DNA of 38,751 nt from the IMG/VR virus record IMGVR_UViG_3300037963_003320, positions 1 to 38,751 of that record; one strand, written 5' to 3'. A program made the translations under genes and the position numbers. Shown here one piece after another: positions 2,512 through 30,386 of the stretch; positions within the stretch are counted from its first letter, which is position 1; each line of letters begins with the position of its first letter. Source of the DNA: a virus. Below the pieces are notes generated by a model that saw nothing but the letters and a program-made list of their open reading frames with translations, was not told where the DNA came from and did not search any database.

Positions 2512-2512
2512 A

Positions 2513-2860
2513 CTACCTAACCTTAAAGTCTTTAATCCAATCAAATAATGTTGATAGTTTTTCTTTTATCTTTGAACTATTACCCTCTATTCTATTATTC
2601 AACTCAGCTCTCTTTTCTTTTTTTAGTAACTTATCATGAGCAATATCACCCTCTTTTTTAGTCTTTTCCCAATCTTTTTCTTCTTGCTCTACCTGGTTGT
2701 CGTAGTAAGATGTGTCATCAATAGCATCATATCCATATGGAGCCATGCCTTTTTTAAAGCCTGAAACATCCTCATCTTTATAATATCCATCTTTGTAGTT
2801 TTTCATTGGAGAAACCCCAAAGTTTCTTTTCATTGGGTTTCCCCTCATTTTAAAAGCCAT
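2513..2860 (-). CDS. Small hypothetical protein with MAFKMRG / SPMK N-terminus (115 aa)
   Basis: The start at 2860 has the ATAATTATGGC context. The product begins MAFKMRGNPMKRNFGVSPMK, followed by an acidic Tyr-rich part (YYKDEDVSG, DDTSYYDNQ) and a long, charged, helical C-terminal half (EEKDWEKTKKEGDIAHDKLLKK). I do not recognise a named family, but the N-terminus is nearly the same as that of 20749-21015 (MAFKMKG...SPLK), a gene beside the ejection proteins. This suggests a virion-associated protein with a shared targeting or assembly tag. There is no signal peptide. The stop codon lies one base before the nuclease start, so the two are likely translated together. Confidence 0.68.
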   Translation of the reverse strand: MAFKMRGNPMKRNFGVSPMKNYKDGYYKDEDVSGFKKGMAPYGYDAIDDTSYYDNQVEQEEKDWEKTKKEGDIAHDKLLKKEKRAELNNRIEGNSSKIKEKLSTLFDWIKDFKVR

Positions 2861-5339: not shown

Positions 5340-5837
5340 TTATATGCTCTTATATGTTATTAATACTTTTTCTCCACACTCAATAGCTTCTGCTATTCGT
5401 GGGTAAATTCTTTTATACGCTTGAGTCGATTTACCTATAAAACCGTTCGTCGTGATTTGGTTGTTTTCTTGGGAGTCGCCAACGAGGAGACAACCAGCAG
5501 TATGCTCATCGGTATTACCACAATGTATAAGAATATACTCAAAACCAGGCACATTAGTAACATGAAGCATCCCAATATGAATGTCTGGAAAACGTTTGCT
5601 ATATTTTTGGTGGTAACCACCAACTGTTCTAAGACCAACTTCGTAAGTCCCGTTAGGTATTCTTGTTTCGCCATATTTTTTTTCATCTCTATATTCATCT
5701 TCTAGTGTATATGCTAAGAAAGTTCTTTTACATCTATAACCCTCACTATGAGGACTATTTGCATGCCTATTTAATTCTAATAACATCCCGTTAGTACTAT
5801 CAGTGCCATCAGAAAATCTAATTACCTCTAATTCCAT
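5340..5837 (-). CDS. DUF5675-type protein, candidate peptidoglycan-acting enzyme
   Basis: The 165-residue protein has the DUF5675 layout: LAYTLEDEYR (41-50), GETRIPNGTYEV (56-67), LHVTNVPGFEYILIHCGN (91-108) and HTAGCLLVG (112-120). His105 and Cys116 sit in an H-x-G-N...T-x-G-C arrangement like the His/Cys pair of L,D-transpeptidase (YkuD-type) folds. The family is common in phages of Gram-negative hosts and is suspected to act on peptidoglycan, but its reaction is not settled. No standard lysozyme, amidase or peptidase gene is visible nearby, so this is the best endolysin candidate, about 3.2 kb upstream of the holin-like gene. The start at 5837 abuts the previous stop (TAAATG). It has no signal peptide. 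Confidence 0.72.
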   Translation of the reverse strand: MELEVIRFSDGTDSTNGMLLELNRHANSPHSEGYRCKRTFLAYTLEDEYRDEKKYGETRIPNGTYEVGLRTVGGYHQKYSKRFPDIHIGMLHVTNVPGFEYILIHCGNTDEHTAGCLLVGDSQENNQITTNGFIGKSTQAYKRIYPRIAEAIECGEKVLITYKSI

Positions 5838-7123: not shown

Positions 7124-10100
7124 CTATCTATGGTATCTACATTTGTAAACATTACTTTTTGTCCAACCAGTTAGTTTACATCTTCTACCCTCGGAGTTTC
7201 TACCCGAACAACGCTTTTCTTTAAGCCCAGCATTTTCTTTTTCCATTTTTTCTATCTTCTTATCAATCTCTTTTTCTTTCTTTTTCTGAATCTCTCTTTT
7301 TTCTTCAGCTGACTCTCTAGCAACTTCTAAATCTACATCTTTTGCGCCAACGTTCCACATACTCCAACCTAGCATCATGGCAGCATCTTGCCAGATAGCG
7401 TGTCCACCGGTAACAACCTCCTCCATACTATTAGCTTTGTTTAATATTCTAGCTGTTGGAGCGTTTGTAACAGCCTCAATAACATTAGCTATAGCGTTTA
7501 TATTTGGATTTTCAATTCTAAAACCTAACTCCTCACCAACACCGTCATTGTATGCAAAAGTTTTTAATGCTTGATACATTTTTCTACTTTTAGCCCCAAG
7601 CGGTGGAGATAGGTTTATCATTTCAATAGCAACGTTTCCAAGGTCTCTCTTGTAGCTTTCTTTACCTAGTTCAGCTTGAGCTTGGAGTATAATATTCTTT
7701 AGTGTCGCAGCTGATGCTCCATAAACACCAGTTCCTCTAAGCACAGTATCAAACGCGCCGTTTAAAACTCTTTGCTCTTTCTTTTCAATAGCTTCTTCTT
7801 GGTCGGTACCAAACATCATCCAACCCAATCCGGTTTGTAGAGTCATGAACCAAAGGTTTTGAACTGCACCGTAATAAAGTATTTTAGAAACATTGTTTCT
7901 CCAATCGCCTCTACGGTTAACTAAATCAGACATACCTTTCTTCATTAACCTAGTCATTTGCATAGGTGTATTTGCCCAAGCTAGTATTATTCTACCTAGT
8001 GGTCCGGCTTGTTGTTGTGATATTAAGTCCGGTCTAGAGGATTGCTGTGTTTGCTCCGCTATTTCTTGAAAATCCAACCAAGCCTTTTCTTTAGCTTTAC
8101 TAATAGCCATACCTTGCTTTAAGTACATGTTTAATCTATTTCTATAAAATGGCGCGCCGCCCATAGCAATAGCAAAACTATCTGCTAATTTAGTTGGGGT
8201 AAAACCTTTCTCCAATATATACTTAAGTATAGACCTAGGGTTTTTACCACTTTTTTGGAACTGATTAGTTAACTCTGATGCTGACACATCTATTTCTAAA
8301 CCAGCTCTTCTTTGTTTTAACATTGGTGAATTCATTATGAAAGCAAAGTCTTTCCAAAATTGAGGTTGATTAGCAAAAGCTTTAGACGCAGCGAATATAC
8401 TATTGTCTTTGTGGTTTATAAAGTTAACCATAGATATGGTTTGTAACACCGATGATCTAACATTAATAAACATCGTTGCCCCAACAGAACCATTAATCCA
8501 ATCGTAAAAGTCTTTAGTTGGCCCATCTTTTGTACCGATTAATCTATTAGTACCATGCTCCATTCTGTACAGCATATTTTCTAAAGCTTCTCTATATCTA
8601 GAACCAAGCACACTCTCTATTTTGTTTAAGTTTTTCTCAGAAAAAATAACCTTCTTATTCTCAATCCACTTAGATAGAAAATTAGATCTTGTTGTTCCCT
8701 TAACTAGATTGTTTAGATCACTAGATATGCTCTCTAACATCCAGTACTCACTAGGGGCCTCATAACCCTTTTTCAATCTAGTGATCGACTCTAGTGTTTC
8801 AGCGAACTTAACCAACTTAGGATTACTAGTAACGTAATCTAGTAACATGTTTTTAGTGGACTCTTTCATACCTGGTATCTCATGACCTCCCTTTTCCCAA
8901 AGATAGGTTCTTATAGCAATATCATTAGTGTACTCTGTGCCCTCAATTTTCTTATTAAGTTTAATGTCTTTTTTAGTCTGCTTGGTTAACTCCTTATACT
9001 CTTCAGACATTTTTTGTTTAGCTATAGTTAAGTCTCTAATCCCAACAGCAAATGGGTCAAATAAGTTCTTTTTAAACCAAGCCATGTCAGCATCACCCTG
9101 TTTGCCCTTACCTAATAAAGAATACATTAAGCCGGAGAAATCTTCGGCTGAAGGTGGAATAAAGAAAGACCATTTACCTATATTTCTACCTTTAATCCTA
9201 GCAGCTCCACCACTAATGTTTTCAAGAGCATTAACGTTAAATCTACGCTCTATCATTTCGTTAAATTCAAGGTCTATACTTTTAGAAAACTGAACCTTAC
9301 TTAGCCCAGTACCTTTTACAATGGGTAAGCCTTCTAGGTTTTGAATTAATTCTCTTCCCTTTTTTGTAGATATATCAACTATCCAATCAGGTAGTTCTTT
9401 TCCAAGTTTTAAATCTTTTTGTCTACCAACAAATTCGTTTATTTTAGATACCAACTCTATTGGCATTAAATCGTTTTTCTTTAAGTTATCTGTTTTTACT
9501 TCCATAAAACTTTCCTTAAACATACTTTTAAATCCAGGTTTATTTTTCTGTACAGATTCGTGATTCTTTTTTACTATATTATCTAGCAGAGATCTTTCTT
9601 TTCTTAATTTGTTTCTACTTAAAGCTGTATTTAAAGAAGTCTCAACAAATAGCATACTTGTATCGTAACCCTTATCCTTAAATTCTTTAACTAATTTTTC
9701 CATGTTTTTAATGGAGCCGCCTGTTCCATCAACAATAATCCCATCTCCTCTTCCTTTAAACTTCTCCATCTTTCTGCTAGCTATACCTCTAGCTTGAGCA
9801 CCTATTTTACCTAGCTTACTTCTTTCTTCCTTACTAAGCTCCCTCATATTTTCAGGTATACCCTCTTGCTTTTTTAACCACTCCAAAGAAATATCTTGAT
9901 TAACTATCTCAAAACCTTGATCTCTTAGTTTCAGTTTGTTGATAACATTACTCTTGCCGCTACCAGCACCGCCAGCTAAAAATATAACTTTCTTGCCCGG
10001 TTTAGTTTCATAGTTTTCAACAAACCTTCTACCTTCTTTTGTCGTCATATCAACAACATACTTACCTACTTGAATTTTATTCTTAGCTTGAACAACACTA

Positions 10101-13100
10101 GATTTTACATCTAGTTGATTTAATACATCTTTTACAGCTTTAACGTTAGGTAGTGCATCGTCTACAAAGTACATGTCATTATATCCTTCAGAAAACTTAT
10201 TAAGCATCCATTCAGCCTTAGCCTTGCCAGTTCCGTTACCTAATCCAGTTATATTTTCAATAGGAATTTTAACACCTTTTGATTTCAACCAACCAAGTAT
10301 AGCCATCGCTGATTGCGGTGGTCTAGCTGTTAGTACAAAAACATTATCACTTCCATATTTTTCTATTTGATTCTTCATCTTTTGAAGAAGTGGACCGTCC
10401 ACACCACCTTTAACATTAACAAAATCATTGAAATCAAATTCATAACCTTCTTTTATTAACTTAGAGCTTTCAACAGGCCAAGCTTCAGAACTTATTTTCT
10501 TAACAACACCTGTTTTGGGGTTTTTCGCTGTGACAAAGTTTTTACCTTTTATAATAAGTGTTTCATCAAAATCAAAAGTAGACATACCTCTTTTTTCTCC
10601 TGATCTACTATATTTAATTTGACTGTCGACTATCTTGCTATCTCTAATTAATCTCTCTTTATGCTCAACAGCTTTCTCTCCATTTTTCTTTTCCCATGTA
10701 GATAGCTTCTTATTAGTTAGAAACTCGTAGTAATTTTTACCACTAAAAGAAAATATATTATCCACGTGTTTCCCAGCTGGATGGTATTGGTCTAAGAATT
10801 TTACCCTATCAAAACCAGCGGGATTTGTTTTACCACCCTTATCTATTATGTCAGCAACATACTCGGCTGTTATTAATTGAGAATGATCTGTTAGTATTTC
10901 TTTTATTCTTGCTCTTCTAGCCTTGTCGGTACTATATTTCTTGCTTCTAGTTGCCTCCATTATAAACTCGACTAGCTTTATGTTTGTTAATGCACTTGGT
11001 CCTAGATGCTCACCCTTTATACCAAGTTTACCTTTTTCAATCATTTCTAAAACCACGGCCTCACTACCATACCATTTAACTGCTTGTTTAAACCAAGGGT
11101 TTCTCTTGTTAATGCTATGTGAAACACCCTTCTTAGCTTCAGATAAATTATTAGTAAACTTTTCCACAACCTTACCAGATCTTGTTTTTACCTTGTATCT
11201 ATATGTAGCCTGTGAACCAGTTCTAACATCAACCAATTCTAATCGACTTAACGCTCTAAATCCTTTTACTAAACTAGTTTGAGCTTGTAATATGTGTGCC
11301 ACGGTTGATGCATCAAACTTTTTACCTATAATACCCTTTGTTAGTCTGTTTATTATTTCAGTGTGAAGTTCTATGTTAGCTTCACTAGCTTCAACTATTT
11401 CTTTTTCAATTTTTTTAAGCTCTAATATTTTTTCTGCTTGAGTAATATCTCTGTTTAATATGTTTTCAACCATCTTAAATGGACCACCAACACCCTTATT
11501 CATTAGCTTAACTTTTTCAACCAATTTTTTTATTTTTGGTTCGGATTTAAATGTATTAGCTAAATTAATTAATTTTTGCTTAGACTTAAAGTACGGAGCA
11601 GATATATATTTTCCATCTTTAGTTTTCTGATATTGAACATCTCCACCGTGCTCTTTTTTTATAATATCCTTTTGCTCCGTGGACATAGTTTCCCACCAAT
11701 CCCATTTTTGTTTTTGAGCTGGATTAAGTATTCTCCTATGAAAACCTAACATATCCCATAATGGTTTCATTTGCAGAACATCTTTTCCCAATGCTTTAAC
11801 CACCTCTGGTAATTGTCTTTCTATTCTACCCATCGTTTGTAGATCATTTCTATTGAATCTATCTTTTTTAAATGCGTCCGCAATCTCTTGCATTAAAGGA
11901 TTTTTATGGTTTTTTATACCGGATATAAACTTAATACCGTTAGAAGTTGCTGGAGCAAGATCCCATATTGAATGAACCTTGTCAATTGTTTCTTGACTTA
12001 TGTTTTTATTACCATAATCTCTTATAAGTCTTAGCTCACCAGTATCTGTTAGTTTTATAACATCTCCCAACCCATTTTCCCATATGTCTTTTAATAATTC
12101 TCTTGCGTGATCTATATTAAATTCTGTAGACTTAGAAAAATCTACACCAACCTTACCACCAACAGAGTTTACTATTTTATCTAATAAACCCTCTACAACC
12201 TTTTTTCCATTAACCTCCTCTATTCTATTCTCTCTTCTAACTTGATCAACAACACTTTTAGTTATATTGTCTACTAAGAAATCAGATACAGATTCTCTCT
12301 TTCCAGCAAAATAATTACCAGATGCAGCCTTACCACTAAAACCTATAATATCTTCTGCTTGTACAGTTTCTTTTGTTTTAGGGTTGTAATATTCTCCGTT
12401 TAAGAGAGCTTGTAGTCCCATGTTTCCATTTATTTCCTCCCATGTTTTAACTCTATAAACAGTAGTACCTGCTGTTGTTGAAGCTGTTTTTCTCAACTGC
12501 TCCATACCTTGAGCTGCTTTTGTTGTGCTAACAGAAGCTCTATCAATAACAACCTCTCTACCAAATGGCTTCGCGTCCGGGTATTTTTTTAATATAGCTT
12601 TACTAGGTGTTCCGGCTTTAACTATCCAGTTTTTACCATCAAGAGTCTTCATAACATAGTTTTCCCAAAACATTTTACCGTACTTTTCGGTAAATTTTAT
12701 AACACCATTTTTGCCACCATCTAAAAACATCTTCTTAACAGTTGTCATTACTTCTTTACGAACGTTTTGCTTCAAGTCAGTAATGAATTTTGGGTTAACA
12801 TTTCCATCTACATCTAAAACATCCACTTTAGATTTCTTAAAAGAATTTAACGTTGCGTTAAAAGCTTTTTCTTTTAACACATTGTATTCAGCAGTCCCGT
12901 CTTTAATACCAAAATCTTTTCTAAACTGGGATATTTCTTTTTTAGTAGTCTCTTTAAGTTGTATTTGTTGGTTTTCAAAATCAGTCATCTTTCTATCCTC
13001 AACACCAACTTGTCTTTCAAAAACATCTTCACCAGATTTTTGCTCAAACTTTTCTTTCTTTATCAGTGTTTCAGCTGATGGCAACCCTAATTCCTTTGCT

Positions 13101-16100
13101 AAACTATTAGCTCTTAAATTAAGTCTATTACTAATAAAATCATCTATTGTTTGACCCTTACCTAAATCCTCTCTTCTAAACTCACCACCCCTATCTATAA
13201 GTGACGACGCTCTTAGTATTAGTTCGTTTTTAAATTGCTCTCTTGTTATACCTAAATCTCTCAAAGCTTCTTTTCCACTAGGATATCTAGTTATGGGGTC
13301 ATATATTCTCTTTAATATGCTACCAACTATAGGTCCTACTTCTTTCCCAAAAGAACTTTCGTTAATTGGGTACTCATGTCTAGACCAATCTAACTCTGCT
13401 CCTTCAACCGGTATCTTTCTACCCTGACTATCTAGTATTAAACTACCATCCTCTCTTTTAGCAAAAGAATCTGGGTATCTATTCAACTCCTTTCTAAGCA
13501 TTTTGGCGGGATTGCCATCATACTTACTAACCATAGCCTCAACGTTACTCTTAGACTTAGCTCCACCAGTTCCTTCAATTTTCTTACCATCAACAACCAT
13601 ACCAATGTTTGCGTCAGATTCTTTAGTTAATGTTTCTATCATAGCCCAAAGATCGTTAACAGCTTTCTTAGAATTTACACCGTTAATCTCAAACTTATAC
13701 ATGTTTTTATAAGGTCCTCTTTCTTTCATTATAGGCCACAAAACTGTACCAAGTTGTCTACCAGTTGAGTAATCTTTTATAAGTTGCTTGTTTTTAATAG
13801 CGTCAACTGTAGCGGTTAAGTACTCTTCATAATACTCTCTGGGATCTTTCTTTATTCTCTCACCATCTTTTAAAACATAAAATTCTTCAATTACTTTCTT
13901 ACCATTCTTAACGACAGTCCTGTAGTCGGTCTCGTACATGTAGTTTTGTTCAACTCTATCTTTTATTAATTTTCTATCTTTCGAATAAAGCTTACCTAGC
14001 ACTAGGTCTATTATTTTCATTCCATCCTCTGAAACTCTTCTTCTAGTTTCTTTTTTACCAGTAGCTGGATCTTTGTATGTATAACTTTCTTTTAGTGTGT
14101 CCCATAACAACTTATGCATTATCTCATGTCTACCAACACCTAAGTTTTTAACCTTAAGAGCTTGATTCATGTTGATATATATTTTATCTCCAAGCTTAGA
14201 TATAAAAGCCTCACTAAATTTACCAGCATTGACATCTTCTCCATTTTTCCTTAAAATATCTTCATATTTTTTCTGATCAAGAATTTCAAAACCAACTCCT
14301 ATTTTTTCAGCTAGTTTTTTATCTAGTTTTAATTGAGCCAATAGTTCTTTCTTAAACTCAACGTTATGTTTTTCGAACTGCTTGTCTAATCTTTCGTTTA
14401 ATTCTTTGTTTCTATTTTCTAGTTGCTTTATTTGCTTATCATATATAGCTTCGTTAGAAGAACCTTGCTTAGCGGCTTCTTTTAAATTTTTAATATTATT
14501 TAAATTGTGAGCTAGTTCGTATTGAGACTCCATCCACAGATCTCTAGTGTTACTACCTCTTTCACCCATTTTTAGTTTGGTGGCGATCATTCCGGACTGA
14601 CTAACAACACTATAAACAGATCTTAGGTAATCAGCTCTATCTCCTTTTATACCTTCGTTTTCAAGAAACATTTCAAACTCCTTAGCATTTAGATCTGCAA
14701 TTCTATCTAGATCATCAGCTTTTAACTGACCATCACCTAGCCCCCTAGCTATATTCCATTCAGCTCTTAAGTAATCAATATATTCCTTTTCGCTTTTTAA
14801 ACCTTTTTTGGTTTCAATTATTTCATTTCTCCTAAATAATTCTGCAGCCCAATTCTCAATGTTTTTATTGTCTTTATTTAGTTTGTCTATTTTTTCATTT
14901 AGCTCGTTGAACTTTTTTTCTAAAGCACCCTTACCATTAACAGCATCATAAATACCACTAGTCTTAGGGTCTAACTCCTGTTTTCTTAGATCTTCCAATT
15001 CTTTTGTAATTGGATCTCTCTCAGCCTCTATAAGTTTTTGCAACTGGTCTCTTTCTCTTTTTATGTCTTTTGTTTCCCAAGTACCATCCTCATTCTTCTC
15101 GTTCTTTTGACTCATACCCAAGCCTTTGTCAGCAGCCTTACTCTCTATAGTTTCTGTTTTAATTCTTAAAAAATCTGTCTTTATATCTCTACCGATACTA
15201 CCAAGGCCTCTCCATCCAACAGCCATCATCGCAATAGTTGTTGCTATAAAGTGATCCATTGTTGTGAAAGAATCCCACTCTTCTTTTCTACTTTTACCTT
15301 CTTCAGATTCGGGATCAAGATGTGTCCACGGCCACCATCCGTTATCAAAGTCTTTCTTCATCTGTTCAACAGCACTTGCCACGGTTAATAAGCCTGTCGC
15401 TGTAGCGCCTTGCCCAGTCCACTTACCTAATGTTCTACCAGTTTCGCCAAGAGTTAAAGATCCAGCTAAATTCTTATTTTTTATTTTATCTAAGTATAAT
15501 AATACTTGACCTCCAGGACCACCTTCTTTATTTATTATAGGTTTTAATACTCTGTTTTGAAAACCTTTTATACCTAATCCAAATAATCCTCCCGACATAC
15601 CCATAGCCATGGGGAAAATAAAATTAGTTTGTACCTCACCAGTCTCTTTATCAATATGAAAAGTATGAGCATCAAACATACCACTACCATCAGCAAGTAA
15701 AACCTCACCACCATATTCTGCCATACTCCATTCTAAAGGCGTTACAACACCTGGCACAACAACGTTGTGTACAAATTTCTTATACATTTTACTGTTTGAG
15801 TTCTTTGTAAATGCTCTAGCTAAACCGTGAAATGTTTTATTTAGAGTTTTTAAACCACCAACTTTTTTAAAAACAGCTATCTCTGCTAGCAACGGAGCTA
15901 ACGATGTTACTGTGTTAGCAGCTAAGTTTGCAATTTCCCTCTGCCTATTACCTCTACCGTTCCAACCCTCGTTACGAACATCTGGCAACTGGTATATCCC
16001 AGACTCTAATATTTTGTGTTCAAACACTTGGTTCATATCATCTGAGGTTACATCTTTAAGCCCACCAGTTCCACCAAAAAAGGCTTTACCAAGTCCATCA

Positions 16101-18487
16101 ACAATAGTAGAACCATGCCCCGTTGTTATAACAGAGTTGTAACTACCTTTTGTTGGTAAAAGAGTTTTATCACCACCAAACATCTTAGCGTCCTTTAGGT
16201 TTTTAAGATTAAAATTGACACCAAGCAAATAATTCTCCATATCAGATTCTCTGGGATCGATATTTAAATCAACAGCTCTAGACCACATTTTGTACTCTGT
16301 TAAAGCATCATTAAAGTTCTTTGCTATTTTAGATCCTCCACCAATATTAGTAAAGAACTCTGGTGTTTTACCATCTACATTCAAACCAAATCCCCAAGAA
16401 GAAGGATTCTTTGCATCTATCTCAACATCAAATATTTTTCTATCTCCTTCTGGTCCAAATACCTTTTCTAATTGAGCAACATCATTGACGTATGAATCGT
16501 TACTGGGATCAAAAACTTTTGCAAACTCTTTATCTATCCATCTTATTTCCTTCTCCATTTGATCCTTATTGTCCCACGCGTATTGGCCAGCTGCTAAAAA
16601 TCTATAGTATGCTTTTCTCCGCATTTCTTTTATGAAATCAATATCATTTTCTACAGCTAAGTCTTTAGCGTCTTGCTCTATTTTTATTTCAATATCACTA
16701 GCTTTTCTGCTTTCTCCAGTTGGTACATCGTTTTCATTAACCTGGATCATTCTTGTTTCATCACTAGGATCAAAAACCCATCTTGTTTTTTTAACGTTCC
16801 TAAACTTACCATTTTCATCAACAAGATCTCTTATACCTAGTTTTTCTATTAAGGCATTTTTTTCAACCTCTAATCTTTCTAACTCTTTACCTATATCATC
16901 ACCCTTCAACTCTACAACCTCAATTTTATTTGTGTTCTCATTAAACACTGTTTTAAAACCGTTTTCTATATTTTCAATTTCTCTTTTTATTCTTTTTAAA
17001 TCCGCCGGTTCTTTTCCGTGAGAAACCATGTCCACTATTTCTAAGTAATCATCAACCCCACTAGTACCGCCGTACTTAGCTTCTTCAATATCCTTATTCA
17101 CGTCCTCACTTATAGCTTCTAATTTTTCATACAACCTATCTCTATTATCCCATATATACTTATAAGATAAACGTGTTCCATCTTCAAGCTGAACAAAACC
17201 ATCTCTATCAACACCAGTGCTAACCCACTTGCCTGTTATTTGTCCATCTTTAGAAAAAGTAGGTGTTACTTTTCTACCAGTTGGATCTGTAAAGCTTTCA
17301 CGATATTTTTCAATTAGTCTTCTTTTTGAAATATTTGGATTAAACACGGAGTCTAATTCTTGCATAAGAGCTGCTTCAAATTCAAATTCATTTACTGAAT
17401 TAAGAAAGCTTGAATTACCTATTTTTCTTATTAGCTCCATATCTTGCTCGTGTGCTAAATCTGGATTACTATTTCTTTTGACTTCTTGCATCATGTCATT
17501 TAATTGCCCAAAGTCTATTTCTAATTCCTCGGTGCTACCCTCTGGTCTAGCCTTGTATATATTAAATGGCTTGGATTTCCAACCGTCCCCATGTAAGGTT
17601 ATTGCGTCGCGAAAATTTATAGCCTCTTTAGCTACAACTCCTTGTCCCTCAAAGTATTTATTTAAAAAGTTTTTCAATCTTTTTTCTGGTCCAGCTGTTT
17701 TAGTAGACATGTCTGGTTTATGAAACTTGGGATGTAATAGTTCGTTGGTAGTTGCTATTGGGGTTGTGTCATCATTGTTAATAATACTTTCCATTTGAGT
17801 TATCAAATCCTCTTTAACAGTACCATCATCATTAAATATTTCTAGCATTTTATCATTAGATACCTTTTTACCATCAACCTTAGATTCAACTGTGGGATTT
17901 ATATATCTCCAAGCATCGTACATTTTACTCTTAGCTTTCTTAACCATTTTAGTTTGCGACAAATAATTTGCTATGCCTTTCTCTGCTCCAAGTAAACTAC
18001 CAACAACACCCGCGGTAATAAGTCTATTTTTTACATCCTCTTTTTTTGATATATCTTTATATGACTTTATAGAACTCTCTAGCCACGCTTGAGTTTCTGG
18101 ATCATTACTAATATTAACATTTAGTTCACCTTTAGCTATCTGCTCAAGGTAATTACTGTTAGAATCTTGTAAAAGTTTTTTGAAATTTTCTTTAGATTGT
18201 GGGACAGATACGCCCCCTTTTGATATTGAATAAGTTGGTGGTGGAACCACGTAGTCCTCCTTTCCACCCCTTATTAATTTAGAATTTTTATGTTTTGGAT
18301 CGTTTATAAAAGATGAATGATCTTCTGGTTTAACACTAATCGTTTTACCACTCTGTTGTTGGTACACAAATGTGTCACCCAATGTTGGCATTATTACCGC
18401 CTGATCATTATTTTTTAAAAATTGTTCTAGATCTTCAGGTTCAACTTTATAAGTCTTACCGTCATTACCTCTATATCTTGTTGTCAT
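7124..18487 (-). CDS. Giant multidomain internal/ejection protein (3787 aa) with zincin, HAD phosphatase and P-loop kinase domains
   Basis: This 11.4-kb gene is by far the largest. Seen in order: two similar units of about 30 residues at 4-72; hydrophobic stretches between about 150 and 1120, several with Gly/Ala-rich membrane-like character; long charged coils; H1454-E-I-M-H1458, a zincin-type motif with a possible Glu ligand further on (EYYEEYLTATVD); a HAD phosphatase-like domain (2635-2781); a P-loop kinase-like domain (2833-3010); a region with IPPSAEDFSGLMYSLLGKGK that I associate with large polyvalent phage proteins; a hydrophobic segment NLWFMTLQTGLGWMMFG; and a Cys/His cluster at 3760-3786. 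Following two smaller internal-type proteins, it matches the place of injected proteins in short-tailed phages (T7 gp16, or the virion RNA polymerase of N4). I see no RNA polymerase motifs. It probably enters the cell with the DNA, helps cross the envelope and acts on nucleic acid or host factors. Confidence 0.85.
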   Translation of the reverse strand: MTTRYRGNDGKTYKVEPEDLEQFLKNNDQAVIMPTLGDTFVYQQQSGKTISVKPEDHSSFINDPKHKNSKLIRGGKEDYVVPPPTYSISKGGVSVPQSKENFKKLLQDSNSNYLEQIAKGELNVNISNDPETQAWLESSIKSYKDISKKEDVKNRLITAGVVGSLLGAEKGIANYLSQTKMVKKAKSKMYDAWRYINPTVESKVDGKKVSNDKMLEIFNDDGTVKEDLITQMESIINNDDTTPIATTNELLHPKFHKPDMSTKTAGPEKRLKNFLNKYFEGQGVVAKEAINFRDAITLHGDGWKSKPFNIYKARPEGSTEELEIDFGQLNDMMQEVKRNSNPDLAHEQDMELIRKIGNSSFLNSVNEFEFEAALMQELDSVFNPNISKRRLIEKYRESFTDPTGRKVTPTFSKDGQITGKWVSTGVDRDGFVQLEDGTRLSYKYIWDNRDRLYEKLEAISEDVNKDIEEAKYGGTSGVDDYLEIVDMVSHGKEPADLKRIKREIENIENGFKTVFNENTNKIEVVELKGDDIGKELERLEVEKNALIEKLGIRDLVDENGKFRNVKKTRWVFDPSDETRMIQVNENDVPTGESRKASDIEIKIEQDAKDLAVENDIDFIKEMRRKAYYRFLAAGQYAWDNKDQMEKEIRWIDKEFAKVFDPSNDSYVNDVAQLEKVFGPEGDRKIFDVEIDAKNPSSWGFGLNVDGKTPEFFTNIGGGSKIAKNFNDALTEYKMWSRAVDLNIDPRESDMENYLLGVNFNLKNLKDAKMFGGDKTLLPTKGSYNSVITTGHGSTIVDGLGKAFFGGTGGLKDVTSDDMNQVFEHKILESGIYQLPDVRNEGWNGRGNRQREIANLAANTVTSLAPLLAEIAVFKKVGGLKTLNKTFHGLARAFTKNSNSKMYKKFVHNVVVPGVVTPLEWSMAEYGGEVLLADGSGMFDAHTFHIDKETGEVQTNFIFPMAMGMSGGLFGLGIKGFQNRVLKPIINKEGGPGGQVLLYLDKIKNKNLAGSLTLGETGRTLGKWTGQGATATGLLTVASAVEQMKKDFDNGWWPWTHLDPESEEGKSRKEEWDSFTTMDHFIATTIAMMAVGWRGLGSIGRDIKTDFLRIKTETIESKAADKGLGMSQKNEKNEDGTWETKDIKRERDQLQKLIEAERDPITKELEDLRKQELDPKTSGIYDAVNGKGALEKKFNELNEKIDKLNKDNKNIENWAAELFRRNEIIETKKGLKSEKEYIDYLRAEWNIARGLGDGQLKADDLDRIADLNAKEFEMFLENEGIKGDRADYLRSVYSVVSQSGMIATKLKMGERGSNTRDLWMESQYELAHNLNNIKNLKEAAKQGSSNEAIYDKQIKQLENRNKELNERLDKQFEKHNVEFKKELLAQLKLDKKLAEKIGVGFEILDQKKYEDILRKNGEDVNAGKFSEAFISKLGDKIYINMNQALKVKNLGVGRHEIMHKLLWDTLKESYTYKDPATGKKETRRRVSEDGMKIIDLVLGKLYSKDRKLIKDRVEQNYMYETDYRTVVKNGKKVIEEFYVLKDGERIKKDPREYYEEYLTATVDAIKNKQLIKDYSTGRQLGTVLWPIMKERGPYKNMYKFEINGVNSKKAVNDLWAMIETLTKESDANIGMVVDGKKIEGTGGAKSKSNVEAMVSKYDGNPAKMLRKELNRYPDSFAKREDGSLILDSQGRKIPVEGAELDWSRHEYPINESSFGKEVGPIVGSILKRIYDPITRYPSGKEALRDLGITREQFKNELILRASSLIDRGGEFRREDLGKGQTIDDFISNRLNLRANSLAKELGLPSAETLIKKEKFEQKSGEDVFERQVGVEDRKMTDFENQQIQLKETTKKEISQFRKDFGIKDGTAEYNVLKEKAFNATLNSFKKSKVDVLDVDGNVNPKFITDLKQNVRKEVMTTVKKMFLDGGKNGVIKFTEKYGKMFWENYVMKTLDGKNWIVKAGTPSKAILKKYPDAKPFGREVVIDRASVSTTKAAQGMEQLRKTASTTAGTTVYRVKTWEEINGNMGLQALLNGEYYNPKTKETVQAEDIIGFSGKAASGNYFAGKRESVSDFLVDNITKSVVDQVRRENRIEEVNGKKVVEGLLDKIVNSVGGKVGVDFSKSTEFNIDHARELLKDIWENGLGDVIKLTDTGELRLIRDYGNKNISQETIDKVHSIWDLAPATSNGIKFISGIKNHKNPLMQEIADAFKKDRFNRNDLQTMGRIERQLPEVVKALGKDVLQMKPLWDMLGFHRRILNPAQKQKWDWWETMSTEQKDIIKKEHGGDVQYQKTKDGKYISAPYFKSKQKLINLANTFKSEPKIKKLVEKVKLMNKGVGGPFKMVENILNRDITQAEKILELKKIEKEIVEASEANIELHTEIINRLTKGIIGKKFDASTVAHILQAQTSLVKGFRALSRLELVDVRTGSQATYRYKVKTRSGKVVEKFTNNLSEAKKGVSHSINKRNPWFKQAVKWYGSEAVVLEMIEKGKLGIKGEHLGPSALTNIKLVEFIMEATRSKKYSTDKARRARIKEILTDHSQLITAEYVADIIDKGGKTNPAGFDRVKFLDQYHPAGKHVDNIFSFSGKNYYEFLTNKKLSTWEKKNGEKAVEHKERLIRDSKIVDSQIKYSRSGEKRGMSTFDFDETLIIKGKNFVTAKNPKTGVVKKISSEAWPVESSKLIKEGYEFDFNDFVNVKGGVDGPLLQKMKNQIEKYGSDNVFVLTARPPQSAMAILGWLKSKGVKIPIENITGLGNGTGKAKAEWMLNKFSEGYNDMYFVDDALPNVKAVKDVLNQLDVKSSVVQAKNKIQVGKYVVDMTTKEGRRFVENYETKPGKKVIFLAGGAGSGKSNVINKLKLRDQGFEIVNQDISLEWLKKQEGIPENMRELSKEERSKLGKIGAQARGIASRKMEKFKGRGDGIIVDGTGGSIKNMEKLVKEFKDKGYDTSMLFVETSLNTALSRNKLRKERSLLDNIVKKNHESVQKNKPGFKSMFKESFMEVKTDNLKKNDLMPIELVSKINEFVGRQKDLKLGKELPDWIVDISTKKGRELIQNLEGLPIVKGTGLSKVQFSKSIDLEFNEMIERRFNVNALENISGGAARIKGRNIGKWSFFIPPSAEDFSGLMYSLLGKGKQGDADMAWFKKNLFDPFAVGIRDLTIAKQKMSEEYKELTKQTKKDIKLNKKIEGTEYTNDIAIRTYLWEKGGHEIPGMKESTKNMLLDYVTSNPKLVKFAETLESITRLKKGYEAPSEYWMLESISSDLNNLVKGTTRSNFLSKWIENKKVIFSEKNLNKIESVLGSRYREALENMLYRMEHGTNRLIGTKDGPTKDFYDWINGSVGATMFINVRSSVLQTISMVNFINHKDNSIFAASKAFANQPQFWKDFAFIMNSPMLKQRRAGLEIDVSASELTNQFQKSGKNPRSILKYILEKGFTPTKLADSFAIAMGGAPFYRNRLNMYLKQGMAISKAKEKAWLDFQEIAEQTQQSSRPDLISQQQAGPLGRIILAWANTPMQMTRLMKKGMSDLVNRRGDWRNNVSKILYYGAVQNLWFMTLQTGLGWMMFGTDQEEAIEKKEQRVLNGAFDTVLRGTGVYGASAATLKNIILQAQAELGKESYKRDLGNVAIEMINLSPPLGAKSRKMYQALKTFAYNDGVGEELGFRIENPNINAIANVIEAVTNAPTARILNKANSMEEVVTGGHAIWQDAAMMLGWSMWNVGAKDVDLEVARESAEEKREIQKKKEKEIDKKIEKMEKENAGLKEKRCSGRNSEGRRCKLTGWTKSNVYKCRYHR
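9458..10585 (-). other. HAD phosphatase + P-loop kinase module within the giant protein
   Basis: Phosphatase part (residues 2635-2781): D2639-F-D2641-E-T2643 is motif I, T2720 in VLTARPP is motif II, K2755 or K2757 may be motif III, and D2776-D2777 in YFVDDALPN is motif IV, so all HAD catalytic positions are present. Kinase part (2833-3010): GGAGSGKS (2839-2846) is the P-loop, D2865 in IVNQD is a likely substrate-site acid, D2920 in IIVDGTGG resembles Walker B, and SRNKLRKER (2957-2965) looks like an Arg-rich lid. Phosphatase followed by kinase is the order of eukaryotic polynucleotide kinase/phosphatase and the reverse of T4 Pnkp. The kinase also resembles zeta toxins, so the substrate (DNA or RNA end, sugar nucleotide or other) is open. 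Confidence 0.78.
14114..14128 (-). other. Zincin metallopeptidase motif (HEIMH) in the giant protein
   Basis: Residues 1454-1458 read H-E-I-M-H, preceded by KNLGVGR and followed by KLLWDTL, the helix setting expected for HExxH metalloproteases. A candidate third zinc ligand lies about 100 residues on in REYYEEYLTATVDAI. The sequence just before (EAFISKLGDKIYINMNQAL) could be the edge strand typical of these folds. Similar HExxH domains occur in large injected phage proteins. Confidence 0.62.
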
Positions 18488-23279: not shown

Positions 23280-26200
23280 TTATTCTGGAAAGTACTCATA
23301 AGAAGCGTACTCCATACTTCCATTAACACTAGACTCTCTCCAACCATCTATTTCAATATTATCGTTAGTCCCTGTAACAACTGTATTCATTTCAACTGGA
23401 CCATACACATCAGTTCCAGATCCACTTCCATAAGGTGGTAATTCGGACTGTATATTACTAAGTATAGTACCAGAACCATAAGGGTTAGAAGAGAACGTTG
23501 GATACGATTGGTATTTAGGCGCACCCCCTTGTCCCAATACAGTGTGGTACGGTTGAGATATTAAAATAGTAGCACCAGCGTTAGGTAGCTCTGCCTCAAC
23601 AGCATCAAACTCTATTTTAAAATTACTATCGTAATTATCACTAGTTGCAGGAACCATTAAACTTAATGGATATAATGTATTGTGTTCGACAGTGTGGGTT
23701 GTTGTGGTGTCAGCTAGTTTAATCTTTAAAGTTGAATTACTACCAGGTAGCTGTGCTCCAGTCCCCTTTAAATATAAATTCATTTCAACCATTATCATAT
23801 CTCCATATTCTCTTTCGTATTGAGTATTTCCATCCCCTCCAAATGTTTTATGCTTTATACCAGCTAATCCACTTTCCGAAGATCCAGCGTCTTGGTCTGA
23901 TACAAAAGTGAATGCCGCCCATGGTTGTAAATCGTTAATATCAACAACTTGTATTTCAGTTCCATCTTCTGAATCACCACCATCAGTATCATCTAGGACG
24001 TTAACGTTAATAGGGAAACCTATTCCTTGTACAGAAAACTCGCTTGTATTGATATTATCTAAATTGGTTTCAGTGTCAACTACTCTTTCTACTCCCTGTA
24101 TAAAGTTGAACCACTTACCCTCCTTCTCGATAAACTCTTTAACACTACCTTTTTGTAAATCAGTTTCAAAGCTTTCAACCCACCAACCTTCTTTACCTTC
24201 TAAATTGTAGATATCCGAATCAGTGTATTCAACACCATCATATGTTTCAGTATTAAAAACATTAACTCTAGCTTGAGAGCCCTCATAGTTAATAGCTTTA
24301 AAAGACTTAACAGAACTAGGCATATCATTAAATAAAACGTCTATTCTTGAATCATACTTTGTACCATAAAAATAATTTAGCTTCACACTACTGTTATAGT
24401 GGTGGTATATCTCATCGGATACCGCTGTAATATACTTACCCGTTACTGATAAACCAGCTTCTGGAACAAATGATTTAAAACTAACCCAACCCTTTGAAGC
24501 TTCATTAAAAGAAATAGTTGTATTTTCGGTAGTTAATTTTAATAGATCTTGATAAAAATCAGAGATATTTTCTGAAAACTTTAACGTTAAATTGTACTCA
24601 CCATTAACAGAATCAAAAGTTCCTAATAATGATTTAGACCTCGCTAGATTGTCTCTAAACCACTCTTTCATACCTACATTCGATATAGGTGTTAAACCAT
24701 CTCCAGATAGTCTTAAAACAGCTCCTCTTTGTCTATCTGTAAAGTATAATCTATACTGATCCCAAGCTAATGATTCTGGATTCTTAGATATACCATAATC
24801 GCCAGCAAAAGGAACAGCTGTGCCAAGAACTCTATTTGTTGCTGTTAATTGAGTGTTGCCATCAGCGTTATATAAAGCATCTTTATTAGCTAAAACTTTT
24901 AATACTTTGTCTTCACAAAATGTAACTATATCGGTATTTCTAGTTTTTAAAGCTTGAATAGAACCATAGGCTGGATTTAAATCCTTGGTAATCTTCTCGG
25001 ACATGTTAAATTCATTTAGTTCGTTCACGCCTGAAGTAGAATTGTATATCCCAGAATATATTAACCCACTACCTTTTTTCTCAGCTTTATAATCTAAAAA
25101 TGTTGTAGATACCTTTATACCATTGTCAATAGTTGGCGCATTGAAATCATCTCGTATTCTATCTGACTCTACACCGTTTCCAAAGGTATAACAATTGTGC
25201 CAAGGCAAATCAATAGCGTACTTATAAACATCGGTATCTATTTTCCACATGCCCGTACTACCAGTATTAGGTTGAGAAATAGTTACAGTGAATATATCAA
25301 GATCTAAAGTGCTACCATTATAAGCAAGCTGCCCAACATTCCCTGGTGCACCAGTCAATCCAAACTGACTCATTGGATCAAAATTCCACGGTTGTCCATT
25401 GGTAGTATTAAAAAGAAGTTGATTTAGACCGTTTGTATTAATCCCCAGTGATAGTATTCCTCCTGGCTGAACCACAATTTCATAAAAAGAGGGAACATTA
25501 CTACCTGTAACTATCCAACCCGGTTGGATTGGTGCTCCGTTTAATGTAGAAAGACCTATAGAGTTTATCGCATTACTTTGATCATAATCAAAAATAAACC
25601 AACTCTGATTGCCAAGAGAACTGGAAAAACAAGCACCACTAAGTTGTTGGCTAAGGCCAGTTGATGGAGATACTATATTTCCATTTGTATCAACATCAAT
25701 CTCCTCTTTTATTGTAGATCTAGTTGTTGTTCCGTCTGGATGATGAAACTTAATTATATCCCCTGCTTCTAACACTGTGTTTATTGGTGAGCCGTTGGAG
25801 AATATTTTTACTGCCGTGCCAACAGTATCTTCAACATAGCAATTTGTGGGCAAAACAACTGGTGCGATAGATTGAAGATATCCATTAGTATACACAGGTC
25901 TATCAACTGATACGCTCGCATAAGCAGCAACTTTTTTCTTTGGAGATGTGTATGTTATTATATTCTTTTCATTTAATCTCATTGGTACTATGTTAGATGC
26001 CTCATAGTATATATCCATATCTACATTTTTCTTAGGTTCTGTTTCCCAACAGGCAGCAGAAGTAACCTGCTCTTCTTCAAAAAGCTCTCCAGTTACTGGA
26101 ACTGGTTTTAATATTTCTATTTTCATAGATGTAGAACCATTATGAGCAACAGCTGATCTAGGGTCCCATATGTCTGTTTCAACTCCATAGCCCCTCCAGT

Positions 26201-29200
26201 TTCCAGAATCACCTCCATTAACATATTCCTTTCTAAAAACACCGTTTTCAATTTGTCTAAACCAAATAACAAAAGAAGTTCTTCTATTATAGTAGTTTGT
26301 TGTATCGTCGTCAAAGTTTTTTTGAACTTGATTACCACTACCCGCTTCAATATTGTATGTATCGTTGTCTATAATGCTTGAGCTAAATATTCCACCACCA
26401 ATTTCAGCGCTTTCTTGAATATGCCATTTTATATCTATAGCCTTATAAACAGTACCAAATGGATCATCTGTAAATCTAAAGTATGTTCCACCAGCAAATG
26501 TATTTTTTAGATTATTAAATGATTGAACAACATCTTCCCCTGAGCCTAAGGTGGAAAATGTTAAACCTCCTAATGTACCTTCAACTACTAATCCACCAGG
26601 TTCTTCTCCAACTCCAAAATACATCGAGTCACTATAAGAGAAAGGCCAATCACCAGTTGTTTGAGATACATCTATACTACCTTCGAATAATCCAGAGTTC
26701 TGTCTAGTACCATTTAGAAAAGCAAATTTATCCGCTGCCGGACTGTATAAATGTACCATCTCCTGCATGTTCCCAAAAAATCCTCTTGAACCAGGTTCTA
26801 ATATACCATTGTATACCGGTGTATTATCAATAAATATCTTAGAGGCACCATTTTGATCAAACGCCATCCAGAAATCTTCTATAATACCATCATTATTTGG
26901 GGGAGATTGATCATAATTGTAAGGTAGTCCTTCAAAAGCCCCTTGGTTACTCATCATCTGCCAATAGCTGGAAAATAAGCCATAAAAAATATTTGATTTA
27001 TTTATAAAATCCCATCCTGCAGGTGGACCAAACTCTCCTTCTTGTAGATTTTCATCAACGTACTCTGCAACATCCTCAACGTGAGAAGAGTTTCCACTAA
27101 CAACGTGAAACTTCCAGTCTGAGTAAGGATCTCCATTTTGTGAATACCCCTCAGCAAATCCCCAATTGTTTATTGCCTCACTAGATAATCCTTCTAGTGG
27201 TTGAAACCAAATCCAATGAACCCAGGTTGTACTATTTAATCCAGTTCCATAATCATCCCAGTCTGCACCAGTATAATTAACACCAGCAGAGTTTCCTTGA
27301 TTTTGTGCATTAGGATTTGCATTATTTATACTAGGATCATATCCACTATATAAACTACTAGCCCACGTATCAAACCAAGGATCTGGATCCATAGATATAT
27401 AAGCAATAGCATAAGTACTTAATATTTGATAATCAGTATTAGATTGCTTTGTTATTTTAGACGTTATTATACTATCGTTTTCTATTTTAACAAAGAATCT
27501 TCCATCAAACTCCGCTTTACTTTCTGAAACATCGTCTCTATACTGAAGAAACCAATGTATACCACTACCGTCTCCCATGTCACCAAAGTTAGCGTCAGTT
27601 CCGGCTCCAACATCCAATCCTAAACCCGCGAATGTATAGTTAAAATCTATCTCATCTCCAAAAGACTCAGATAGTATAGTTTTATAAGCGTATTGAGTTT
27701 CCGAACTATTAACAAAATTTGCACCCGACCTAACTAATGTATATTCAAATCTAGCAACTTTGACCCACTTACTATATAATGTTTTATTACTACCAGGATG
27801 AACAGCCTTGACTCTAACCCATTTTGTAACACCTCTAAAGGTATCTTCATCAACTTTTAATTTATCTGGGTGAACTAGTTCAAGTGTGTTTTTGTAAGCG
27901 TCCGGTGTGCCACTAGTTGTAGCCCCGTTACTACTCTGCATCCCTTCTGCACCGTTTGTTTCACCGTAAATATCGATATTGTTTATGCGTTCGGTTTCCC
28001 CCATTGTTCTTTGATCTAGCTTAACAAATTCTGGGACATCGTTTTCAATAGCTAGTATCTTGTATCTAGCTTCTTCTAAAACCGGTGTTTGGTTTCCATT
28101 TTCATTCTTTAAAATCAAATATGTTTCCTCATCAACTTTACTTCTATCAGATGATGGGAATGATAACCATATATTGCCATCTTCAGCGTCATACCATCTA
28201 TCCATAACTAGGTTGTAGTATTCACTTGAAGTTTCTTTAACGTAGTAGCTAACTGAACTAAAATAGGTTGGTGGTTCATCATCCCATTGTTGAGTTAACT
28301 TAAAGTGATTGCTTTTTGCGCATAAGTCTTTGGGTACAACAATATCACCAGTGCTATTAGTAGAATTTGCTGATGGTCCAGCTGTATAACTAGAGGATAA
28401 AACAGGTGTTTGTCTTCCGAACTCATCAGAAAAAACCATACCCCATTTGTAACTTCTTACCGACTTAACCGATTTCTCTGGTGTTAATAACGTTGTGTCC
28501 TCACTAACAATTTGCTGTTGTAAACCTATGAAGGTATCTATATCAAACCCTTGTTCATAATTCCCATACACAACTCTATTTCCAACAATTTCTTGAGATA
28601 AAGCTTTTTTGGGAACATTATCCCAACTTCTAAGTAACTGTTTAGACTCAACAACCTTATGTATTAACTCTGAAGTTAAAACAATCTTACCCGTATTTTC
28701 ACTAACCTCATCAACAAAATTATCCCACTCATTATCAATCCTACGTGTTATTGTTTTTATTATATATACGTTTTGGTCATCAGTTGTTTTAAAAAGAACA
28801 TCAACTGATTTAACGTCATTAGGCCTTACCTTTATGTTTGGAATAAAATCTCTTACAGTGATCTCTCTAACTCCATTAACCATACCGTTATTATAACCAT
28901 TACTAGGTGTGTAACTAAAGTCATCTGGTTGAAAAACAAGTTCAGACCAAGGAGAGAAAGTTGAATATTCCCCATCATCATATCTATATCTATAACCTAT
29001 CCTTCCAAGTTTTAATTCAAAAAGAGGCTTTGGTTGATTAAGCACGAACTCCCAATTTGTATTTAAAGCTGTTAGGTCTGGGTCTATAGAACTAAGTTCT
29101 ATTGTTATACTATTCATGCCAGTACTCTCATTTGTAGCGACATCTGTAACAATAGCTGTTATAGATATATTCATACCTTCAGTAGTATAGTCAGTAAAGG

Positions 29201-30386
29201 TCAATATATCATTTACTCTAAAACCATATAATCCATCTAGATCTACAACCCTAACACTATTAACCTCAGGTGTTCCACCTTCGAAAAAGAAATCTCCAGA
29301 TATGAAACCTTGAACTGGAGATTCACGAGTAGTTCTCCTCATGGTAATATTTGGAGCAGTTGTTGGGGCTTTCCTTATAACAGTGATGTGTTCTTTTTTC
29401 AAGTCGTTATCGGGACTATTTACTCCAACCAACGTATTTAAGTTCTCTATATTATTAACTAAAACTAAATCGTTGTTAGATGGGTCTTTAACTATTAGTT
29501 TAGTATGAGCAAAAGGAGAGGTGAAAGCATTTATACCAGCCATTATCCCAGAGCCATGTATGCATCTTGTTATGTTTATTTTTTTAGGTTCATTTCTACC
29601 ATCACTCCAAAGAAGAATATCATCTATAATATTTATACCTGTTATCTTGTCTTCGGTTTCATAATCAAAATTCAAAAGCCTATCTTCCTCTGGTCTTATA
29701 AACCAAAAGCTTGTTGTACTTCCATCCACCGCTCCAGCAGTTTGTTCTTTATCTAAGTATATCGTTGTACCAGATACAGCTATTATTTTTGTATTAGGCT
29801 GCATTTGATCGTAGGAGGTATTTTTTCTCGATTCAACAATCATTCCAACAATAGGTACGTTATTTGTCATACCAGTTAGGTTTATCGAGTTAAAAGTTCC
29901 TGATGGTGTTGGAGAACCAGCAGACGCATAGTCACATGTTATCATATGCCAATCTACGACAACTGGAGTTACATCACCACCATTTATATTGTTTTCAACG
30001 AATGGTTCAGAAAAATCTTTTTCCACTATAACATCCGCATAAACCTTAATACCAGGAGTTGCAATTATTTCTTCTCTTGTAGGAATAGTTTTAGGTGTTG
30101 CCATGAAAAAATAACCTTTATCACTTTTTTCATCCGCTATAGAACCCACACACTTTGTGACTTGATCTGAAGGAACATTTGTAACCGCATCAGGATACCC
30201 AGTAAAAGTAAAACCAGTACCAATGCTCATATTTCCCTGTATACCTTGCACCGCACCGGCATCACTATTATCAGTGGTCCTAACCTGTATATTCTCCGCA
30301 TGTCTGTATTCACCGTTTGGAACTAGCCTTTCGTCTAGATCTTTGTTCATTTTTCCAGCGGTAAAATTATGTTTAATCTCTGGCAT
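23280..30386 (-). CDS. Giant tail nozzle/tubular-type protein (2368 aa)
   Basis: The N-terminus MPEIKHNFTAGKMNKDLDER, followed by LVPNGEYRHAENIQV, matches the start of large nozzle or stabilisation proteins in podovirus-like phages, in the place of T7 gp12. Pairs of short beta motifs (NDILTFTDYT, DIYGETNGAEG) and a region with RNTDIVTFCEDKVLKVLANK and then AWDQYRLYFTDRQRGAVLRL fit the beta-propeller-like or platform part of such proteins. It is about three times longer than T7 gp12. The extra length lies mostly between residues about 900 and 1650 and is rich in Trp, Gly and Asn, suggesting inserted binding domains. It follows the two adaptor-like genes by 4 bases, as expected for tail assembly order. 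Confidence 0.76.
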   Translation of the reverse strand: MPEIKHNFTAGKMNKDLDERLVPNGEYRHAENIQVRTTDNSDAGAVQGIQGNMSIGTGFTFTGYPDAVTNVPSDQVTKCVGSIADEKSDKGYFFMATPKTIPTREEIIATPGIKVYADVIVEKDFSEPFVENNINGGDVTPVVVDWHMITCDYASAGSPTPSGTFNSINLTGMTNNVPIVGMIVESRKNTSYDQMQPNTKIIAVSGTTIYLDKEQTAGAVDGSTTSFWFIRPEEDRLLNFDYETEDKITGINIIDDILLWSDGRNEPKKINITRCIHGSGIMAGINAFTSPFAHTKLIVKDPSNNDLVLVNNIENLNTLVGVNSPDNDLKKEHITVIRKAPTTAPNITMRRTTRESPVQGFISGDFFFEGGTPEVNSVRVVDLDGLYGFRVNDILTFTDYTTEGMNISITAIVTDVATNESTGMNSITIELSSIDPDLTALNTNWEFVLNQPKPLFELKLGRIGYRYRYDDGEYSTFSPWSELVFQPDDFSYTPSNGYNNGMVNGVREITVRDFIPNIKVRPNDVKSVDVLFKTTDDQNVYIIKTITRRIDNEWDNFVDEVSENTGKIVLTSELIHKVVESKQLLRSWDNVPKKALSQEIVGNRVVYGNYEQGFDIDTFIGLQQQIVSEDTTLLTPEKSVKSVRSYKWGMVFSDEFGRQTPVLSSSYTAGPSANSTNSTGDIVVPKDLCAKSNHFKLTQQWDDEPPTYFSSVSYYVKETSSEYYNLVMDRWYDAEDGNIWLSFPSSDRSKVDEETYLILKNENGNQTPVLEEARYKILAIENDVPEFVKLDQRTMGETERINNIDIYGETNGAEGMQSSNGATTSGTPDAYKNTLELVHPDKLKVDEDTFRGVTKWVRVKAVHPGSNKTLYSKWVKVARFEYTLVRSGANFVNSSETQYAYKTILSESFGDEIDFNYTFAGLGLDVGAGTDANFGDMGDGSGIHWFLQYRDDVSESKAEFDGRFFVKIENDSIITSKITKQSNTDYQILSTYAIAYISMDPDPWFDTWASSLYSGYDPSINNANPNAQNQGNSAGVNYTGADWDDYGTGLNSTTWVHWIWFQPLEGLSSEAINNWGFAEGYSQNGDPYSDWKFHVVSGNSSHVEDVAEYVDENLQEGEFGPPAGWDFINKSNIFYGLFSSYWQMMSNQGAFEGLPYNYDQSPPNNDGIIEDFWMAFDQNGASKIFIDNTPVYNGILEPGSRGFFGNMQEMVHLYSPAADKFAFLNGTRQNSGLFEGSIDVSQTTGDWPFSYSDSMYFGVGEEPGGLVVEGTLGGLTFSTLGSGEDVVQSFNNLKNTFAGGTYFRFTDDPFGTVYKAIDIKWHIQESAEIGGGIFSSSIIDNDTYNIEAGSGNQVQKNFDDDTTNYYNRRTSFVIWFRQIENGVFRKEYVNGGDSGNWRGYGVETDIWDPRSAVAHNGSTSMKIEILKPVPVTGELFEEEQVTSAACWETEPKKNVDMDIYYEASNIVPMRLNEKNIITYTSPKKKVAAYASVSVDRPVYTNGYLQSIAPVVLPTNCYVEDTVGTAVKIFSNGSPINTVLEAGDIIKFHHPDGTTTRSTIKEEIDVDTNGNIVSPSTGLSQQLSGACFSSSLGNQSWFIFDYDQSNAINSIGLSTLNGAPIQPGWIVTGSNVPSFYEIVVQPGGILSLGINTNGLNQLLFNTTNGQPWNFDPMSQFGLTGAPGNVGQLAYNGSTLDLDIFTVTISQPNTGSTGMWKIDTDVYKYAIDLPWHNCYTFGNGVESDRIRDDFNAPTIDNGIKVSTTFLDYKAEKKGSGLIYSGIYNSTSGVNELNEFNMSEKITKDLNPAYGSIQALKTRNTDIVTFCEDKVLKVLANKDALYNADGNTQLTATNRVLGTAVPFAGDYGISKNPESLAWDQYRLYFTDRQRGAVLRLSGDGLTPISNVGMKEWFRDNLARSKSLLGTFDSVNGEYNLTLKFSENISDFYQDLLKLTTENTTISFNEASKGWVSFKSFVPEAGLSVTGKYITAVSDEIYHHYNSSVKLNYFYGTKYDSRIDVLFNDMPSSVKSFKAINYEGSQARVNVFNTETYDGVEYTDSDIYNLEGKEGWWVESFETDLQKGSVKEFIEKEGKWFNFIQGVERVVDTETNLDNINTSEFSVQGIGFPINVNVLDDTDGGDSEDGTEIQVVDINDLQPWAAFTFVSDQDAGSSESGLAGIKHKTFGGDGNTQYEREYGDMIMVEMNLYLKGTGAQLPGSNSTLKIKLADTTTTHTVEHNTLYPLSLMVPATSDNYDSNFKIEFDAVEAELPNAGATILISQPYHTVLGQGGAPKYQSYPTFSSNPYGSGTILSNIQSELPPYGSGSGTDVYGPVEMNTVVTGTNDNIEIDGWRESSVNGSMEYASYEYFPE

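Follow-up and report, generated by a model that had tools for sequence, protein, structure and literature searches.

The DNA analysed here, referred to as the window, is a stretch of 38,751 nucleotides (38.8 kb) of the 43.9-kb IMG/VR virus record IMGVR_UViG_3300037963_003320, an incomplete contig. A giant open reading frame (ORF) of 3787 residues within it encodes a phosphatase–kinase module at residues 2635-3012, with a HAD phosphatase domain first and a P-loop kinase domain second. Positions 9458-10585 on the minus strand map exactly onto residues 2635-3010. An initial annotation, made from the sequence alone, had described a complete HAD catalytic set and a P-loop kinase with an Arg-rich lid at this place, and these motifs are confirmed. 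The two domains and their motifs are as follows.

10043..10585, minus strand: HAD phosphatase domain, residues 2635-2815 (33-homologue alignment, AlphaFold, Foldseek match to PNKP, phrog_415)
10559..10573, minus strand: HAD motif I, DFDET 2639-2643, with D2639 and D2641 (D-x-D-x-T invariant)
10322..10333, minus strand: HAD motif II, LTAR 2719-2722, with T2720 and R2722 ([LI]TAR in 128/128 homologues)
10217..10219, minus strand: HAD motif III lysine, K2757 (invariant column of the 33-homologue HAD alignment)
10157..10162, minus strand: HAD motif IV, D2776-D2777 (invariant in the 33-homologue alignment)
9452..9994, minus strand: P-loop kinase domain, polynucleotide kinase (PNK)/zeta-like, residues 2832-3012 (Pfam AAA_33, Zeta_toxin, phrog_505, Foldseek)
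9950..9973, minus strand: Walker A, GGAGSGKS 2839-2846 (P-loop Lys in 71/71 kinases)
9893..9895, minus strand: VNQD aspartate, D2865, the counterpart of D35 in T4 Pnkp by hhalign with T4 PseT (VNxD in 71/71 kinases)
9713..9739, minus strand: second kinase motif, IIVDGTGGS, with D2920 and T2922 (DGTGG 2920-2924; DGTG[GA] in 71/71 kinases)
9593..9616, minus strand: kinase lid, RNKLRKER 2958-2965 (RNxxRxER common among the 71 kinases; R, N, R, E and R invariant in the kinase alignment)

Sequence conservation and domain arrangements

Retention of the catalytic Asp and Lys positions among relatives had been proposed as a check on the module. The P-loop lysine and the VNxD motif are kept throughout the kinases and DxDxT is invariant, while the motif IV pattern [FYL][AVI]DD scored in 125 of the 128 HADs, the remaining three of which were not inspected individually. 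D35 of T4 Pnkp, with which the VNQD aspartate aligns, is the general base of that enzyme. Both domains are indicated to be under purifying selection: against the nearest full-length relative (L002), the ratio of non-synonymous to synonymous substitution rates (dN/dS) is about 0.065 for the HAD and 0.087 for the kinase, compared with 0.105-0.133 for larger stretches elsewhere. These ratios are rough, as dS exceeds 1 and is near saturation.

Profile searches assign both halves to families named after PNK. The kinase matches phrog_505, polynucleotide kinase, and lies above the Pfam cut-offs for both AAA_33 (43.4 bits) and Zeta_toxin (41.4 bits; cut-off 22.3). The HAD itself falls below Pfam cut-offs, and phrog_415, also named polynucleotide kinase, is matched by 23 of 33 homologues (best expectation value, E, 5.7e-5). 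A kinase profile reaches the Pnkp of Clostridium thermocellum (CthPnkp) only at E 0.05, and hhalign relates it to the T4 kinase at 57% with the motifs aligned. Sequence searches of the PDB returned weak hits, mainly to adenylate and shikimate kinases; with the single protein as query, no PNKP was among them.

Phosphatase and kinase are found paired in two physical arrangements. Relatives were collected from IMG/VR by two scans returning best matches, so that the counts are of distinct sequences and not natural frequencies. The census comprises 69 nested forms, in which the kinase lies inside the HAD, 56 HADs alone and three tandem forms with HAD followed by kinase. (i) In the nested layout, HAD motif I is followed by a short stretch, the kinase and then the remaining HAD; DxDxT is kept in 69/69. 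The insertion point is the beta-hairpin right behind motif I, the site of HAD caps. (ii) The tandem set consists of the window, L002 and L003, and the contig of L003 stops within the kinase. (iii) The tree built on the HAD portion common to all forms sets the nested HADs apart from the HAD-alone and tandem ones, with 100/100 support for the split. (iv) A kinase tree rooted on distant outgroups places the kinases of the tandem forms among those of the nested forms; its rooting involves long branches. Apparently, the tandem pairing was made anew, through fusion of a nested-lineage kinase to the C-terminal side of a HAD that had none. Since the kinase would have been rejoined in this way, likeness to the domain order of eukaryotic PNKP would be convergent, and the PNKP-type order looks secondary. 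That order had been put forward as a feature of the module. It holds for the window, but as a general property it does not, being confined to the window and two close relatives while most others are nested or lack the kinase.

Related kinases occur outside these arrangements. In one giant protein (L159; ORF from 2278, 2001 residues) such a kinase is present and no HAD motif was found, and another is encoded as a stand-alone gene (L160, 229 residues). Stand-alone relatives are also found in Pelagibacter phage HTVC008M and Methylophilales phage Melnitz. Among cellular sequences, homologues were limited to HAD pieces in two contigs of metagenome-assembled genomes. UniProt holds homologous sequences, one of them named UDP-N-acetylglucosamine (UDP-GlcNAc) kinase at 79% identity, and the sequences themselves are thus not new. 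The papers searched, from a limited open-access collection, yielded no account of a phosphatase domain with a kinase inside it, nor of a virion protein bearing a PNKP-like pair.

Predicted folds and the class of kinase

The initial annotation had proposed structure prediction as a further check, and AlphaFold yields HAD and P-loop folds. For the window module, the mean predicted local distance difference test score (pLDDT) is 83.3, with the domain cores mostly near 90. A Foldseek search against the PDB places mouse PNKP first (E 5.6e-7), over 445 columns spanning both domains. The match has a low template modelling score (TM) because the placement of the domains differs. The mammalian catalytic fragment (PDB 3u7g, 1yj5) shares the order of HAD then P-loop kinase with the window. 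It differs in that identity is about 12-14%, its domain placement is not reproduced, and the window module sits in a 3787-residue phage protein, where the order was seemingly acquired secondarily.

The best single-domain match of the window kinase is the kinase domain of CthPnkp (TM 0.75). The partner domains of these two enzymes differ: the phosphatase of Pnkp-Hen1-type Pnkp, that of CthPnkp included, belongs to a superfamily other than HAD (PMC4411300). A nested homologue (L114) was predicted with pLDDT 87.3 and a predicted TM (pTM) of 0.74. Its Foldseek search places the CthPnkp kinase first (TM 0.72), with a zeta toxin at 0.52; bacterial Pnkp1 and T4 Pnkp are matched across both domains, in alignments of roughly 360 columns. 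From the matches of both models, the nested order can be aligned to the T4 type and the tandem order to PNKP. T4 Pnkp (PseT) and Pnkp1 have the same two domain types, and the motifs of the T4 kinase align with those of the window, but these are soluble, stand-alone enzymes with the kinase before the phosphatase, and they work with an RNA ligase.

These comparisons bear on what the kinase phosphorylates. A zeta-type kinase acting on a sugar nucleotide had been named as the main alternative at the outset. A zeta-like kinase would phosphorylate a UDP-sugar or some other small metabolite of the host and so weaken the wall or impede the host while the genome enters; the HAD would act on a related small phosphate or reset the reaction. 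All 22 kinases tested match Zeta_toxin, level with AAA_33; zeta-like kinases have been described in polyvalent phage proteins with such a proposal (PMC5512222), the database homologue is named UDP-GlcNAc kinase, and the nested model matches zeta/PezT. Zeta toxins and PezT resemble the window kinase in the DGT/EGT-like motif and the lid as well as in the Zeta_toxin match. They differ in having no phosphatase partner, and no antitoxin is seen at the window. The alternative thus draws on profiles that score about equally for zeta and PNK, but the fold is closer to CthPnkp (0.72-0.75) than to zeta/PezT (about 0.5). Moreover, a phosphatase that undid the kinase's work on one small substrate would serve no purpose, and both halves match PHROGs named after PNK. 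On balance, we consider a zeta-like function unlikely, although it deserves serious attention.

Adenylate, UMP/CMP and deoxycytidine kinases follow close behind PNK in the Foldseek results, as would be expected if the module were a HAD nucleotidase joined to a kinase of nucleosides or nucleotides, with mononucleotides as substrates. Their TM to the kinase is about 0.5-0.65, below that of CthPnkp, and early delivery from the virion would give such an enzyme no obvious advantage. A role in nucleotide metabolism therefore appears very improbable.

Proposed end healing and ligase genes

The reading we favour, tentatively and with somewhat less than even confidence, is that of a PNKP-like bifunctional end-healing module carried in a polyvalent, probably packaged phage protein, with DNA as the most likely substrate. 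(i) The HAD domain would remove 3'-phosphates from broken nucleic acid, most likely DNA. (ii) The P-loop kinase would phosphorylate the 5'-hydroxyls of the broken ends. (iii) The ends would thereby become 3'-OH and 5'-P, which could be sealed by a phage or host DNA ligase early in infection. We infer the substrate and the activity on DNA ends, and also that the giant protein is packaged and enters the cell. The predicted folds point to a PNKP-like module, with PNKP as top match over both domains and the nested form matching CthPnkp, Pnkp1 and T4 Pnkp; so do the separate matches of each half to a PNK-named family, the conserved motifs and the low dN/dS. The recurrence of phosphatase and kinase together in different orders would fit enzymes that act on the two ends of one break.

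Several observations weigh against this proposal. Coupling with a kinase is not obligatory, as 56 relatives are HAD-only, and a separate AAA_33-type kinase gene was found in none of 13 HAD-only contigs; this suggests that the phosphatase may be able to work alone in such phages. The mutual placement of the domains is uncertain in the window model (pTM 0.57). The two Pfam profiles, scoring within two bits of each other, fail to split PNK-type from zeta-type kinases, and hhalign gave no significant match between the HAD and T4 PseT. In 31 of the 71 kinases, Walker A reads GKGN, with Gly for Ser after the Lys and no Ser/Thr; the window keeps the Ser. At the equivalent of T4 R38, three residues past the catalytic Asp, hhalign aligns a Leu of the window; R38 of T4 Pnkp is a 3'-phosphate contact. 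The 43.9-kb contig of the window, which is incomplete, yielded no ligase. Finally, hhalign detects no homology of the giant protein with the giants of elemo, phi38:1, Manatee Spring and Panino, and only position and size agree. Its packaging is therefore deduced from position, since homology to proteins seen in virions is undetectable.

Ligase genes in relatives bear on the choice between DNA and RNA. The initial annotation had offered the reversal of host tRNA cleavage as an example of what the module might do. The module would then repair tRNA, or other RNA, after cleavage by host anticodon nucleases, as T4 Pnkp does with Rnl1, and be delivered by the virion. PNKP chemistry is identical for RNA. 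Among 19 relatives of at least 59 kb that were examined, 18 encode a DNA ligase. Of 26 contigs, 13 have matches to the RNA-ligase profile PF09414. Two of the matching proteins were scanned and proved to be ATP-dependent DNA ligases, and the remaining places coincide with PF01068 matches. The Rnl1 profile PF09511 found nothing in 27 records, in a search without a working positive control. An RNA-ligase partner was accordingly rejected as a candidate. Repair of tRNA has thus lost its main support and is not favoured, and we regard it as improbable. Because near-complete relatives encode DNA ligase but nothing recognised as an RNA ligase, healing of DNA ends is preferred.

If end healing and entry with the genome are both true, repair would be at hand before a single gene is expressed and would oppose host nucleases from the very start. 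Whatever the function, the nested, absent and tandem states show directly how bifunctional phosphatase–kinases can be assembled. A testable function is also provided for giant marine phage proteins presently annotated as hypothetical or as UDP-GlcNAc kinase. A wider picture, in which the kinase is a cassette found inside, behind or absent from the HAD, the giant is a packaged end-healing enzyme delivered with the genome, and the PNKP-like architecture arose separately in marine phages, is possible but doubtful as a whole.

The giant protein and its genome setting

The giant gene is one uninterrupted frame. It and the genes that place it are listed here.

7124..18487, minus strand: giant 3787-residue ORF, predicted polyvalent virion protein closing the structural block (gene order)
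14114..14128, minus strand: HEIMH 1454-1458 of the giant protein, predicted metallopeptidase site with E1555 (H1454, E1455, H1458 and E1555 invariant in 13 giant relatives)
23280..30386, minus strand: 2368-residue virion protein upstream of the giant gene (phrog_14478, E 3e-112)
35895..38285, minus strand: portal protein (tblastn matches to portal genes, 40-51% identity across most of the protein)

The tblastn matches of the portal gene link the phage to podoviruses of the Pervagoviridae/Elemovirus type, and portal and tail genes together connect it with Elemovirus, Panino and Cellulophaga phages. The source is a flavobacterial-type marine phage. In Cellulophaga phage phi40:1, the same slot holds gp101, the last gene of the corresponding block, which is marked in GenBank as 'annotation based on experimental MS/MS proteomics analysis' (MS/MS, tandem mass spectrometry). 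This is the strongest evidence for a virion-type location of the giant gene. The gp101 proteins of phi40:1 and phi38:1 and elemo gp72 (3757 residues) are likewise giants in this position, seen in virions by MS/MS (phi40:1) or annotated as structural (elemo gp72), but differ in showing no detected sequence homology with the window protein. Homology of the giant's C-terminus with the giants of elemo, phi38:1, Manatee Spring and Panino was looked for with hhalign and not detected. The window giant is probably packaged in the virion. The location among virion genes given in the initial annotation is thus upheld, and the delivery into the cell proposed with it is kept conditional.

Several unrelated enzymatic domains are present in this one large polypeptide: HAD, kinase and the conserved HEXXH site with its downstream Glu, which may process the giant protein itself. 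The protein matches the description of polyvalent proteins, an established class of very large phage proteins with several domains that are presumed to be injected; zeta-like kinases are listed among their domains (PMC5512222, Iyer et al. 2017). The word phosphatase is absent from the main text of that paper. Likeness to the polyvalent proteins of phages and conjugative elements extends to size, multiple domains, position among virion genes, the zeta-like kinase and the predicted metallopeptidase. LPD14, a domain named after polyvalent proteins, is matched in two of 13 giant relatives; the window protein is without it.

PADLOC returned no defence family. Further ORFs noted in the window are listed below.

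1140-1538, minus strand: thioredoxin-like ORF whose start resembles a signal peptide (PF00085, E 2e-7)
2107-2544, minus strand: homologue of staphylococcal nuclease (PF00565, E 6.5e-13)
2863-3642, minus strand: secreted-looking 259-residue ORF with one long, repetitive region rich in Val, Ile, Tyr and Thr, its C-terminus by eye like a type IX secretion sorting tail
5340-5837, minus strand: DUF5675 protein adjoining the structural genes (E 2.4e-25)

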